Positions 51,427 through 55,949 of a stretch of DNA of 64,000 nucleotides are shown here, one piece after another. The DNA is from Radicibacter daui (GTDB taxonomy: Bacteria; Pseudomonadota; Alphaproteobacteria; Radicibacterales; Radicibacteraceae), in assembly GCA_030657355.1 (NCBI GenBank), contig CP131056.1:1508501-1572500 (forward strand), read 5' to 3'. A model generated the notes under the pieces. It made no database searches. It was not told where the DNA came from and saw only the letters and a list, made by a program, of their open reading frames with translations. Made by a program: the position numbers and the translations under genes. The stretch's first letter is position 1. Each line of letters begins with the position of its first letter.

Positions 51427-52665
51427 TCAGGCGCGGGCCGGGGTGTCGAGATGGCGCGCCTGGCGCAGCTGCGGGAAGCCACGCGCCCAGAGCAATGCCA
51501 CCAGCACGGTGCCGATGCCGCCGATGACGATGGCGGGCAGCACGCCGAACAGCGAGGCTGACATGCCGGCGCGGAACTCGCCCAGTTCGTTGGAAGCGCC
51601 GATGAAGACGCCGTTGACGGCGTTCACCCGTCCGCGCACCGCATCCGGGGTCCAGAGCTGGATCAGCGTCTCGCGCACTGCCACGCTCACCATGTCGCTG
51701 GCGCCCATCACCAGAAGGGAGGCGATGGAAATCCAGCCGGTGGTGGAGAGGCCGAAAACGACGGTCGCAAGGCCGAACAGGGTGACACCGGAAAACATGA
51801 TGATACCGGCATGGTCGCGGATCGGTCGGATGGACAGCCACGCCGCCATGGCGAGGGCGCCGATGCCGGGGGCGGCACGCAGCATGCCGAGACCCCAGGG
51901 GCCGGCATGCAGCACGTCGCGGGCAACGGCCGGCAGCAGCGCCGTTGCGCCACCGAGCAGCACGGCAAAAAGGTCGAGCGAGATGGCGCCGAACACCACC
52001 TTTTCACTCCACACGAAACGGAAGCCGGCGACGACAAGGCCCCAGCCCTGCGGTTCGTCGCTACGGATCAGTTTCGGCAGGCTGAGCAGCGGGATGGTGA
52101 TGGCGGCGACAGCGAACAGCACCAGCGCGCTCATATAGGCAACCGGCGCGGAAAGGCCGTAGAGCAGGCCGCCCGCAACCGGCCCGGCGATGGCCGCCAG
52201 CTGCCAGGCCGAGCTCGACATGGTGATGGCGTTGGAAAGGGCCTGCGGCGGCACGAGGCTGACGACGATGGACGAGGAGGCGGGGCCGAAGAAGGCGCGC
52301 GCCACGCCGAACACGGCAAGCAGCGCATAGACGATCCACAGCGCCGGCAGGCCGGTCAGCGCAAAGAAGAATAGCACGCCGGCACAGGCCGCCTCGATGC
52401 CCATGCAGATCGCCATGATCCAGCGGCGGTTAAAATGATCGGCAATCGTGCCGGTCACCAGCACCAGCAGCACGGAGGGCAGAAACTGCACAAGGCCGAT
52501 GAGCCCGAGATCGAAGGGGTCGCGCGTCAGGTCATAAACCTGCCAGGCGATGGCTACCGCGAGGATCTGCGTGGCAAAGGCGCCGGCAATGCGCGAGATC
52601 CAGTAGATGGTGAAGTTGCGATAGTGAAAGGCCGAGCGGGAGACGGCGGTATCGGGGGCGGTCAT
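51427..52665 (-). CDS. MFS transporter, EntS-like/MFS_3 family
   Basis: 412 residues with about 10-12 hydrophobic segments. The N-terminus FRNFTIYWISRIAGAFATQILAVAIAWQVYDLTRDPFDLGLIGLVQFLP-like region and the cytoplasmic loop DHFNRRWIM are typical of MFS_3 exporters such as EntS. Substrate unknown; siderophores or drugs are the family range. It shares only a 3-bp gap with the AraC regulator gene. Confidence 0.85.
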   Translation of the reverse strand: MTAPDTAVSRSAFHYRNFTIYWISRIAGAFATQILAVAIAWQVYDLTRDPFDLGLIGLVQFLPSVLLVLVTGTIADHFNRRWIMAICMGIEAACAGVLFFFALTGLPALWIVYALLAVFGVARAFFGPASSSIVVSLVPPQALSNAITMSSSAWQLAAIAGPVAGGLLYGLSAPVAYMSALVLFAVAAITIPLLSLPKLIRSDEPQGWGLVVAGFRFVWSEKVVFGAISLDLFAVLLGGATALLPAVARDVLHAGPWGLGMLRAAPGIGALAMAAWLSIRPIRDHAGIIMFSGVTLFGLATVVFGLSTTGWISIASLLVMGASDMVSVAVRETLIQLWTPDAVRGRVNAVNGVFIGASNELGEFRAGMSASLFGVLPAIVIGGIGTVLVALLWARGFPQLRQARHLDTPARA

Positions 52666-52818
52666 CTGGGGTCCGGAGGCGTCCCTGAAGGACGCGGTTA
52701 TCTGAAAAATCGAGCCTTAAGGACGCCTGCGGGCGCAGCCTGTCAAGGCGCCTTGCATCAATGTCGACAAAGTGTGGCGGCCTTGCCGCAACTGTGAATG
52801 ACGGTCGAGCTCTGTCGG

Positions 52819-52838
52819 TTAGGAAAAATTTCCCCTAA
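52819..52838. promoter_or_regulatory. AT-rich palindrome upstream of the tailspike-like gene
   Basis: TTAGGAAAAATTTCCCCTAA has TTAGG/CCTAA arms and an inner GGAAA/TTTCC symmetry. It lies in a 289-bp spacer between the MFS and tailspike-like starts that otherwise shows no gene. It may be an operator; no regulator can be assigned. Confidence 0.3.
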
Positions 52839-52954
52839 GAACATTTGGTGAACAAGTAGATTTATCACCCTAGCTTGAACGAGCACACGGGGGCGCCGGA
52901 CTTGCCGCTTCAGCTTGATGGCACCGCGTGTCTTTCTCAAGAAAGGTGTTGACG

Positions 52955-55033
52955 ATGAGTGTTGATCCTATTGGCGTTTATGGCCTTTTGTCCGGGATTT
53001 CCTGGAAGGCGCCGGTCGATGTGGCGACGGTCGGTCCCATATTTCTTTCGGGTGTCCAGGACATCGACGGCGTGACCGGCACCGAAAATCAGAGTGTTCT
53101 GGTGTGGCGGCAGGAAGACCCGCTGGAGAATGGCATCTACTGGCAGCAGCCTGGAATGTGGGTGCGCCGTACGGACGCTGACGGCCCGCGCGATTTCACA
53201 ACCGGCAGCCGGTTCGTCTGTCTGGGTGGTGCTGCAAATGGCAACCGCCAGTTCAAGGTCACGACAGCGACACTGCCGGTGGCTCCTGGCATCAATCCGC
53301 TGAATTTTGCTGTGGATCAGATTAACTGGGGCGGCAAGACCAGTGTGAAGGATGTCGCGACCCTGCGCCTGAATACCGAGATGGCGGCCAATATTTTTGT
53401 GCAGGGCTACTACGAAATCGGTGATGGCGGTGGCGGGCAGTTCTCGCTCGATCCGGCGGATGTAACGTCCGCAGACAACGGCGTCACCGTCATCGTCGAT
53501 GCGATGGGTAATCGCTGGAAGCGCGAGTTGAATGGCACGGTTCTCAGTGTGCTTCATGCTGGCGCCCGAAATGACGGCAGTGTCGACGCCGTTGGCGCGT
53601 TTGCTGCGGCTCTCGCGACGGGGGTGACGCAACTCCACATTCCGGCCGGTACTTACCGGTTTGATTCCACGCTCATCATTGGCGCCGTCGGCTCCGCCTG
53701 GCCGATGCTCACGGGCGAGGGCATGCGCAGCACCTTCATCGACGCGACCAGCCACACTGGCCCGGCCGTCCATTTCAACCAGACCAAGGGTTCAGGCGGT
53801 GGCTACGGTGGCGGTCTCGCCGATCTTTCCATTCTCGGCAGCAATGGCGTCAAGCTGTTGGATCGCACGCAAACTCTCACAGCCGGGGGCATCCTCCCTT
53901 TCAACATGCTGTTTCAGCGCGTGGCGGTTCGTATGGTCGGCGTAACGTCACCCGGCATTGCGTTCGACTTCGCCAAGCTGGCCCGGAGCCGGGTGGAGGA
54001 TTGTAACGCCGATGCTCCGAATGTCGGGCTTCTGCTGGTCGGCTGCGAGGACAACGCCATCACTGGCTTCACCGTTAGAGGGTTTTCCGGCTACGCTATC
54101 TATGAGCGTTCCTGCGGCACGCTGGGGCGGCAGAACCGGTTCTCAGGCTGTAATCTGATCGCCAACGAGGATGCGTCGGCTACCTACTTCAAGGCGGCAT
54201 CGCAAAGCGTGATCATGGCCTCGTCCTACATCCGCACGTCGCCCTGCTCGTCAGTCTTCGATTTCTCGCATGTCGATGAACCGGACTGGTTTGGCGAAAA
54301 TTTGCCGGCCTCTCCGTCTTTCATCGATCTGGCAGGAGTCGAAGCGGTCATCGGCTCCAACGCATCGGATTTTGCCTATCGTGTCGATGTCTCCGAGGCG
54401 CGCTATATCCGCATCGAGCCGGTCCGTATGCCGGGGGGCAGCGATGTGCTTGCCATCTTCACTGATGCCTCCGGCATTCCCTATGAAACTGGCATTCCTG
54501 CCATTGTGGGTTCCGACTATCGGGAAATTATCCTGGGCGACATCAATGAGGCCTTCGGCAGCCAGTGGCAGGCCTATCGATCCGGTTCTTCGATCGCCTA
54601 TCAGGGCGGGCTCTGTTTTACGACCGGTACTCTTGCGGCCCTGCCGATGTCGTTCCAGAACGATCAGGCACTGGTTGACGGGATTCGTCTCAACTTGCCG
54701 GCGGAACTCGACACTTCGGCCACTGTTCAGTTCATCGCGCCTGCCAGCAATCCCTCTGCCGTGTATCTGGCGCCGGGGACGACCTATACGCTGGAGGTCT
54801 ATGCCCGTACACGATCGCCGGACGGCGATACGCTCAACGCCAGCTTGAGCTGGTTCGAAACCGCGTGGTCGGGTTCGTCTCCGCAGGCACTTTCCCTGAG
54901 TGATTCAGTCCAGAAGTTCACCTTCACGGCGACGACACCTGCCGTTCCGTTCGCGAACGAAGGGGTTCGTTTCTCGCGCGGCACCAACAACGGTGTGATC
55001 GAGATCTACCAAGTACGAATTCTCTATTCGTGA
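52955..55033 (+). CDS. Phage tailspike/tail-fibre-like protein with pectate-lyase-type beta-helix
   Basis: 692 residues from the ATG at 52955 (AAAGG upstream). Residues about 15-110 have the tail-fibre repeat layout (SGVQDIDGVTGTENQSVLVW, ENGIYWQQPGMWVRRTDADG) seen in phage fibres as VLVKxQTxxxENGIY...TRATDAD. The centre has the tailspike beta-helix entry (VLHAGARNDGSVDAVGAFAAAL, LHIPAGTYRFDSTLIIG) followed by helix coils such as NAITGFTVRGFSGYAIYE. The C-terminal about 170 residues look like a beta-sandwich (carbohydrate-binding-like). No signal peptide and no other phage gene nearby. It may be a glycan-binding or depolymerase protein acquired from a phage; enzyme activity is not shown. Confidence 0.75.
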   Translation: MSVDPIGVYGLLSGISWKAPVDVATVGPIFLSGVQDIDGVTGTENQSVLVWRQEDPLENGIYWQQPGMWVRRTDADGPRDFTTGSRFVCLGGAANGNRQFKVTTATLPVAPGINPLNFAVDQINWGGKTSVKDVATLRLNTEMAANIFVQGYYEIGDGGGGQFSLDPADVTSADNGVTVIVDAMGNRWKRELNGTVLSVLHAGARNDGSVDAVGAFAAALATGVTQLHIPAGTYRFDSTLIIGAVGSAWPMLTGEGMRSTFIDATSHTGPAVHFNQTKGSGGGYGGGLADLSILGSNGVKLLDRTQTLTAGGILPFNMLFQRVAVRMVGVTSPGIAFDFAKLARSRVEDCNADAPNVGLLLVGCEDNAITGFTVRGFSGYAIYERSCGTLGRQNRFSGCNLIANEDASATYFKAASQSVIMASSYIRTSPCSSVFDFSHVDEPDWFGENLPASPSFIDLAGVEAVIGSNASDFAYRVDVSEARYIRIEPVRMPGGSDVLAIFTDASGIPYETGIPAIVGSDYREIILGDINEAFGSQWQAYRSGSSIAYQGGLCFTTGTLAALPMSFQNDQALVDGIRLNLPAELDTSATVQFIAPASNPSAVYLAPGTTYTLEVYARTRSPDGDTLNASLSWFETAWSGSSPQALSLSDSVQKFTFTATTPAVPFANEGVRFSRGTNNGVIEIYQVRILYS

Positions 55034-55083
55034 GCGATTGACCCCGGCCTCTGGCCGTTAAGGCCATGAAGTTCTCAACAGAG

Positions 55084-55121
55084 CGCCCCGCCCGCCTCCA
55101 ATGCGGGTGGGGTGTTTTGTT
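55084..55121 (+). terminator. Intrinsic terminator after the tailspike-like gene
   Basis: CGCCCCGCCCGC / GCGGGTGGGGTG (one G-T pair) with a 7-nt loop is followed by TTTTGTTG, about 50 bp after the stop. Confidence 0.8.
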
Positions 55122-55238
55122 GCGGGAGATAAAATGACGGTAGCCGGTAGGGGGCGATTACGCTTTAAAGGTCGTCATGCCGGCTTTTTTCTCTCGTATG
55201 ATTTTGCGCAGTGCCCTGCCGATGCGGCGTTTCGGCCT

Positions 55239-55949
55239 ATGAAGGCCTCGGAGCGTTTGCGGCGGCCTCTTGCTTTTGCCGGCCTGTGGCTGAAGCGGGT
55301 GGTGCTGACCATCCTCGGCCTCTGGGCATTCGGGCTGTTTGCCTATCGCTGGGTCGATGCGCCGATTACGCCGCTGATGGTGATCCGCCTGTTCGAGGGC
55401 GAGGGGCTCAGCGTTCACCATGTCCGGCTGGAGGAGATTGCCCCCTCTGTGCCGCGCGCGGTGATCGCGTCGGAGGATAACCGCTTCTGCGTCCATCACG
55501 GCATCGACCTTGGGGCGGTGCGCGACGCGGTGGATGATTTTACCGACAGCGGCCGGTTGCGAGGTGCCAGTACGCTGACGATGCAGCTTGCCCGCAATCT
55601 CTTCATGTGGCCGGGCGGCGGAGCGGTGCGCAAGATCTTCGAGCTGCCGCTGGCGCTTGCCATCGATGCACTCTGGCCCAAGGAGCGCATCATCGAGCTT
55701 TACCTGCAGGTGGCCGAATGGGGCCCCGGCGTGTATGGCATCGAGGCGGCAGCCCGCAAACATTTCGACAAGCATGCCAGCCAGTTGACCCGCCGTGAGG
55801 CGGCGCTGCTGGCGGCCGTACTGCCGGCCCCGCGGCGCTGGGATCCCAATCCGCCCAGTGCCTATTTGTCGCGCCGGGCGGTGACCATCGAGCAGCGCAT
55901 GCGCCAGCTCGCGCCGGACTGGTACCGCTGCCTGCCGGGTGATGATTAA
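55239..55949 (+). CDS. mtgA: Monofunctional peptidoglycan glycosyltransferase MtgA
   Basis: 236 residues from ATG 55239; GT51 enzyme polymerising lipid II glycan strands. There is one N-terminal membrane span (VVLTILGLWAFGLFAYRW). The catalytic Glu lies in VIASEDNRFCVHHGID. Further GT51 motifs are RGASTLTMQLARNLFMWPG, KIFELPLALAIDALWPKERIIELYLQ and GVYGIEAAARKHF. An in-frame ATG at 55134 has a better ribosome site (GGGAGATAAA) but would add 35 residues of unrelated sequence and starts only 13 bp after the preceding terminator. Confidence 0.92.
   Translation: MKASERLRRPLAFAGLWLKRVVLTILGLWAFGLFAYRWVDAPITPLMVIRLFEGEGLSVHHVRLEEIAPSVPRAVIASEDNRFCVHHGIDLGAVRDAVDDFTDSGRLRGASTLTMQLARNLFMWPGGGAVRKIFELPLALAIDALWPKERIIELYLQVAEWGPGVYGIEAAARKHFDKHASQLTRREAALLAAVLPAPRRWDPNPPSAYLSRRAVTIEQRMRQLAPDWYRCLPGDD

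Follow-up and report, generated by a model that had tools for sequence, protein, structure and literature searches.

Phage tailspikes of the beta-helix fold act as trimers: they attach to surface polysaccharides and cut them. The bacterially made proteins of tailspike fold that we met as subjects of study are WceF and TspA. WceF, which has a Tat leader, is described as a tailspike-fold enzyme that Pantoea stewartii uses on its own exopolysaccharide (EPS) (PMC7949094). TspA (Rcc02623, from locus rcc02623 beside lysS) is described as the biofilm-degrading tailspike of RcGTA, the gene transfer agent of Rhodobacter capsulatus, and the possible release of surplus TspA as free enzyme upon lysis has been proposed (PMC13420450, a preprint). 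Searches of the open PubMed Central library for lone or domesticated tailspikes, depolymerases and tail fibres gave, judged by the titles listed, no paper on a lone bacterial tailspike apart from WceF.

The gene considered here, which encodes a tailspike-type protein of 692 residues in a window of 64,000 nucleotides (the whole stretch of Radicibacter daui DNA that was analysed), is intact, lone and phage-derived. A leaderless spike that bears its anchor and is accompanied by no detectable particle genes raises the question of reuse as a stand-alone biofilm or capsule enzyme, and that of its exit route from the cell. Our preferred reading, held tentatively, is that a phage tailspike has been captured and that its product is probably a soluble polysaccharide depolymerase, set free when cells lyse. 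Almost as likely is a recent neutral relic.

The gene and its surroundings

The frame runs from an ATG at 52955 to a stop ending at 55033 without an internal stop codon, in exact agreement with the coordinates and length that the preliminary description gave for an intact gene of 692 codons. Ordinary genes stand on both sides, and no polysaccharide operon adjoins it. The side of the MFS transporter also has AraC, LpxR and TerB/DnaJ genes, while the transglycosylase side continues with methyladenine glycosylase and TetR genes and then, judged by eye, a peptide-type ABC transporter. A sugar-nucleotide/heptose-type surface polysaccharide cluster begins ∼20 kb downstream (L020:12184 to L021:3076, from gene starts only).

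Features of the tailspike-type gene and its immediate surroundings, in window positions
Feature	Position	Strand	Basis or remark
MFS transporter, 5' neighbour	51427-52665	-	
Palindrome CTTTCT-CA-AGAAAG	52932..52945	.	Inverted-repeat scan; overlaps the ribosome-binding site of the spike gene
Tailspike-type gene, 692 aa	52955..55033	+	ATG-TGA frame; phage tailspike families and folds
N-terminal virion/fibre domain, aa ~9-119	52979..53311	+	PHROG, tblastn, PDB 9nx3, model
Tailspike stem/cap with GYYxxGDGGGGxF motif, aa ~125-240	53327..53674	+	PHROG, model, relatives
Right-handed beta-helix body, aa ~195-440 (later rungs poorly modelled)	53537..54274	+	VIA, sub-threshold Pfam
C-terminal jelly-roll/CBM-like beta-sandwich, aa ~560-692	54632..55030	+	Separate fold, Foldseek, VIA
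Rho-independent terminator-like hairpin, 20-bp stem, T-rich 3' side	55076..55122	+	Folding energy, shuffles
Transglycosylase, MtgA-type, 3' neighbour	55239-55949	+	Gene call

Ten neighbours searched with Pfam and PHROGs gave no phage structural, lysis or integration families; their PHROG matches were to families of unknown function or, in one case, of transcription regulation. The surroundings had been described as free of phage genes, and among these ten they are: adjacent cryptic phage genes, the finding named beforehand as speaking against a lone gene, were looked for and did not appear. The 115 gene calls of the window and 60 kb of flanking DNA are cellular-looking by their starts. There are no tRNA genes within the 64-kb window and no Rfam families at 52600-55300, and the segments 52301-53000 and 54951-55650, compared for attachment-site-like direct repeats, have no common word of 10 or more bases.

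The genome (5.06 Mb, 2 contigs, 100% complete) was searched for five particle markers, and no match was obtained for GTA_TIM (PF13547), which we take to be a domain of the RcGTA megatron, or for Phage_capsid (HK97), Terminase_6N, Phage_portal and Phage_sheath_1. Among 14 control genomes, the same markers were found in one (GTA_TIM), four (Phage_capsid), six (Terminase_6N), four (Phage_portal) and three (Phage_sheath_1), the Caulobacter control being positive for GTA_TIM.

The codon-use comparison suggested earlier was run against the genome region. Among the 84 gene calls of 200 aa or more, the spike gene has the second lowest GC3 (0.697 versus a median of 0.804), the second lowest GC (0.595) and the third lowest codon score. 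Its composition is foreign-leaning and fits a recent arrival, and an intact frame therefore need not mean use. With low GC3, clean neighbours and five particle markers unmatched genome-wide, the earlier view of a phage-derived, cargo-like single gene holds. The further suggestions made there, that the protein may act on the cell's own capsule or EPS or serve in defence or competition, are left as conjecture by the lack of an evident leader peptide and of a polysaccharide operon next to the gene.

The same composition bears on the main rival to the depolymerase reading, a neutral relic, which we consider a serious if unproven contender: the gene would be as yet unbroken but idle, either all that is left intact of a prophage in decay or in fragments, or an acquisition from a phage through illegitimate recombination. 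Atypical GC3 and codon use argue for such a relic, as do the absence of any polysaccharide context in the adjoining genes and the presence of a single gene copy in the genome with no order-level relatives (genus, family and order are each represented by one genome, that of the source). Against it, all 692 codons are intact, the gene has its own ribosome-binding site and its own strong hairpin, and no other phage debris was found beside it.

That hairpin (−38.7 kcal/mol, z −5.7, with none of 200 shuffles equally stable) upholds the terminator reported earlier downstream of the gene; a terminator consensus scan also has a match at 55091-55111, the regional number of such matches being at chance (3 versus a mean of 2.8). 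The palindrome claimed upstream fared less well. The 289-bp gap does contain three perfect inverted repeats with 6-bp arms (mean 0.87 in 500 mononucleotide shuffles), but 43 of the 500 shuffles reach three, so the number is no higher than chance and the palindrome was rejected as an operator. Of the three, that at 52932-52945 is closest to the gene. An imperfect 20-base palindrome at 52819-52838 also lies 5' of the gene. Scanning of the coding strand gave no promoter-like site at the gene, in a scan that is weakly informative in this organism.

Domain architecture and predicted fold

The three parts named in the preliminary description, a fibre-type N-terminus, a beta-helix core and a C-terminal beta-sandwich, are all supported, by PHROG matches, VIA and a separate C-terminal fold, respectively. 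Residues 9-119 match PHROG virion-structural, head-decoration and tail-fibre families and residues 125-240 match tail-fibre and EPS-depolymerase families, these being among 25 families listed, many of them of unknown function. With residues 1-124 as the tblastn query (E up to 0.1), 281 phage records were matched, of which 194 are Mycobacterium phages; the best 60 of the 281 include the 'capsid decoration protein' of cyanophage PSS2 and tail fibres and tailspikes of Klebsiella phages. The N-terminal domain also matches the solved structure of a 'capsid decoration protein' (PDB 9nx3; E 6.4e-5), for which the open PubMed Central library yielded no paper. Further along, Pfam Pect-lyase_RHGA_epim is matched at residues 198-268 below its threshold (E 2.9e-4, 21.1 bits versus 27) and Beta_helix more weakly, and the search against NCBIfam gave no family. 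A profile built from alignment A3 matched 44 PDB sequences at E up to 0.01, among them tailspikes, glucanases, alginate epimerases and WceF.

The protein was modelled with AlphaFold2 and the same alignment, which holds 36 phage stretches, mostly trimmed to the matching region, from 34 of 80 IMG/VR loci. The mean pLDDT is 59.5, with most of residues ∼20-300 well modelled: residues 21-120 have values of 76-88, apart from one block at 59, and residues 131-240 have values of 87-97. As residues 383-569 fall below 50, the catalytic residues were not placed; the structure prediction proposed earlier thus provided tailspike-type helix matches and left the accompanying search for active-site residues without a result. 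Foldseek places phage tailspikes on top and lists 31 chains, WceF included, at E up to 0.001; whole-model TM-scores, normalised by the model, are low (best 0.26 among the tailspike and WceF matches listed), as are those against viral predicted structures. VIA gave Z of about 13-17 against phage tailspikes, including Klebsiella K2-2 TSP (Z 16.9, rmsd 16) and gp42 of vb_AbaP_AS12 (6eu4; Z 15.1, rmsd 3.7, 263 aligned); several tailspike comparisons have an rmsd above 15 because the alignments cross badly modelled residues. Two hallmarks of a phage tailspike are represented, the right-handed parallel beta-helix body in the comparison of the model with tailspikes (residues ∼125-440) and a putative N-terminal particle-binding domain with stem in the sequence, where the modules follow the order seen in phage loci L036 and L129.

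The last 152 residues (541-692) were folded separately without an alignment. The best of five models is a beta-sandwich (pLDDT 65, pTM 0.66), the other four having a pLDDT of 44-54. In Foldseek, CBM4/CBM16 modules lead, followed closely by jelly-roll domains from unrelated proteins, and among the VIA matches listed the best has a Z of 9.6 and the others 7.5 to 8.8, with 7.7 for the Klebsiella phage capsule depolymerase 6tku. The C-terminal beta-sandwich has no Pfam match below E 0.1, and 'CBM-like' is here a statement on the predicted fold, not on function.

Relatives and selection

Matches to the spike were found in 13 of 385 genomes of the class (E up to 1e-3) and 13 of 398 of the phylum (E up to 1e-4), the source genome included in each. 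The gene itself aside, none extends over the complete protein: what they cover is the N-terminal domain, the stem or the early helix. Of the 12 other class genomes with matches, 11 have matches that reach into the stem (residues ∼125-240), and so do most of the 80 IMG/VR loci. No full-length relative appeared in the class, phylum, IMG/VR or GTDB-contig searches, in which pattern scans reach close relatives only. Such scans of IMG/VR with the whole protein, its C-terminal 148 aa and its middle 284 aa gave no relative, and none of 15 pattern matches in GTDB contigs was confirmed. With MtgA as a synteny anchor, two relatives at 60% identity were available. Of 16 window proteins compared with both, MtgA alone was matched in the two, with two ABC ATPases matched elsewhere in one, and therefore no empty site could be shown.

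Flanks were viewed for 13 of the 16 other class loci (those of G050, G163 and G232 were left out) and for 12 of the 13 other phylum places listed (that of G720 was left out). The class loci occur in three settings: lone among ordinary genes, with a Tat-type leader and/or polysaccharide genes, and phage-like. The loci that are phage-like in gene order are L023, L032 and L033, the last two read as plain ORFs and the first with the gene caller on the wrong strand under the match. Also in the same class, prophage-like locus L129 encodes a protein of 657 aa that has both modules, virion domain and stem, at its N-terminus; a phrog_376 tail protein gene lies upstream of it and an endolysin gene downstream. 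The IMG/VR phage contig L036 has these two modules as well (38% identity in the best segment, residues 10-222), and its spike gene is followed by a second gene with the N-terminal domain, with an endolysin-type gene downstream. At nine phylum loci (L130-L137 and L140) the N-terminal domain lies within fibre genes, in clusters that are of the contractile-tail type by gene starts. Two non-alphaproteobacterial genomes contain stem-type spikes (L138:8305-10419 and L139:8099-9958) with no twin-arginine leader and, by gene starts, no evident phage neighbours.

The second setting, with a Tat-type leader and/or polysaccharide genes (L028, L030, L031 and L035), includes three relatives with Tat-type leaders (L028:9840-11660, L031:9796-11199 and L035:8731-10260). 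These three are possible WceF-like exported EPS enzymes. Among ten class proteins compared, L028 reaches furthest into the helix (24% identity over residues 105-522 of the present spike, P0001), and L031 and L035 adjoin glycosyltransferase or sugar-epimerase genes. An exported enzyme of the WceF kind, trimming the cell's own exopolysaccharide, is accordingly worth weighing for the present spike too, the more so as VIA aligns its model with Pantoea WceF (6tgf; Z 14.6, rmsd 4.2, 263 aligned), its relative L028 has a Tat-type N-terminus, two of the three Tat-leader relatives stand beside polysaccharide genes, and surface-sugar-type genes begin about 20 kb downstream, by gene starts only. We nonetheless judge it improbable, and the least probable of the explanations considered for this protein: the gene lies outside any polysaccharide cluster, the virion domain occupies the position of a leader, and inspection of the first 30 residues revealed no twin-arginine motif and, by eye, no leader-like start. 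Within the first 45 residues, hydropathy peaks in the 12-residue stretch 23-34 (score 1.80), which falls inside the virion domain; since the corresponding values in the three Tat-type relatives are 1.61-2.03, hydropathy alone is indecisive on a leader.

Lone, leaderless spikes beside ordinary genes were found at L024, L025, L026, L027, L029 and L034, all in genus g34. Their stems are 28-52% identical to that of the 692-residue spike, and they are without the N-terminal virion domain. Those of L024, L025 and L027 adjoin a SulP permease, with a family search run on the L024 neighbours. Genome G033 has three different lone leaderless spikes (L026, L027 and L029) at unrelated places, and genome G161 two (L025 and L034), likewise at unrelated places.

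For the orthologues L024, L025 and L027, the spike has pairwise dN/dS values of 0.109, 0.224 and 0.202, compared with 0.039-0.195 for six flanking genes, and in two of the three pairs, both with L027, the spike lies above all six. At least one lone leaderless spike, of g34 and without the virion domain, is thus maintained, although constraint on it is slightly weaker than on the genes around it. When L024 is compared with L027, the dS of the spike (0.30) is several-fold above that of the flanking genes (0.031-0.083), which suggests that the spike allele was replaced by recombination.

That one set of lone spikes elsewhere is under purifying selection weakens the relic explanation for the present gene, whereas its anchor lends that explanation some weight. 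In a score of conserved positions the fit of the anchor to its family consensus (0.69) is the second lowest of 18, poorer than that of the stem, which takes rank 42 of 76, and a low anchor score would fit relaxed particle binding; the comparison is weak, as the pool held nine contractile-cluster fibres that probably weigh on the 18 anchors, and near-identical stems were kept in the 76.

The spike might also be a particle part acting in trans, carried by a gene transfer agent, by a tailocin or by a phage that infects this bacterium, as RcGTA carries TspA. We regard this as unlikely, given that the genome matched none of the five markers, in a search with non-contractile tailocins, divergent or other families and visiting phages outside its reach, and that the three g34 genomes with lone spikes also gave no match for GTA_TIM, found in G237 only among 11 genomes tested. 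What speaks for it is the retention of the N-terminal virion domain and the precedent of TspA, described as an alphaproteobacterial tailspike whose gene has ordinary neighbours yet serves a particle (PMC13420450). A head spike of a gene transfer agent, an idea drawn from the N-terminal head-decoration matches and from the head spikes described for RcGTA (PMC7296036), was rejected for an agent of the RcGTA type, GTA_TIM having no match.

Proposed role and comparison with known systems

To return to the captured, lysis-released depolymerase that we tentatively prefer, we propose that the genome took up a complete tailspike gene whose phage donor was probably short-tailed and podovirus-like; nothing else of that phage was detected. 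By analogy with tailspikes of its fold, the product would assemble as a trimer in the cytoplasm, and it may degrade or modify a surface or matrix polysaccharide, meeting this substrate mainly upon lysis of some cells. Released in this way, it could loosen EPS or capsule around kin or competitors, comparable with what has been proposed for surplus TspA (PMC13420450). Since an export signal and a particle are both missing as far as tested, release by lysis is the simplest working route; that no lysis gene was seen near the spike gene counts against it. The lone leaderless spikes of g34 among ordinary genes speak for this reading as parallel cases, but the selection measured there bears on it less directly, since it concerns a different spike that lacks the virion domain.

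A wider and more doubtful idea is that of a class of domesticated lone tailspikes, repeatedly captured and kept without leader or particle as lysis-released matrix cutters, of which the 692-residue spike would be an anchor-bearing member. If real, such a class would, on the same doubtful footing, stand apart both from the EPS enzymes exported by Tat and from the spikes of gene transfer agents. The question of reuse becomes testable with the lone spikes of g34, of which one set is under purifying selection and may have been exchanged between species. They resemble the present spike in their related stem, the lack of a twin-arginine leader and their ordinary neighbours, but differ in that the N-terminal virion domain is absent and that three genomes share one of these spikes as an orthologous locus.

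Phage depolymerases such as Klebsiella K2-2 TSP (8iq9), Acinetobacter vB_ApiP_P1 (6e1r) and Depo32 (7vz3) have the same order of parts as the 692-residue spike, from a virion-type N-terminus to a C-terminal beta-sandwich, whereas the latter stands alone on a bacterial chromosome with particle genes undetected, and its clear sequence similarity to phage proteins is limited to about the first 300-370 residues. TspA, as described, is similarly alphaproteobacterial, encoded beside an ordinary gene (lysS) and built of a capped beta-helix and a C-terminal beta domain. It differs in being made together with RcGTA, whereas the genome studied here gave no match for GTA_TIM, and its N-terminus is described as a beta-sandwich of the CBM-like kind (PMC13420450); that of the present spike matches phage decoration and fibre families by sequence. 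WceF (6tgf) shares with the spike a tailspike-type fold in a bacterial protein outside a phage, with neck and helix aligning, and is described as having kept a phage-like N-terminal head domain (PMC7949094). It differs in its Tat leader and its location in the stewartan cluster, neither of which applies to the present gene, and its head domain is described as resembling that of P22 TSP, whereas the N-terminus of the 692-residue spike matches decoration and fibre families.
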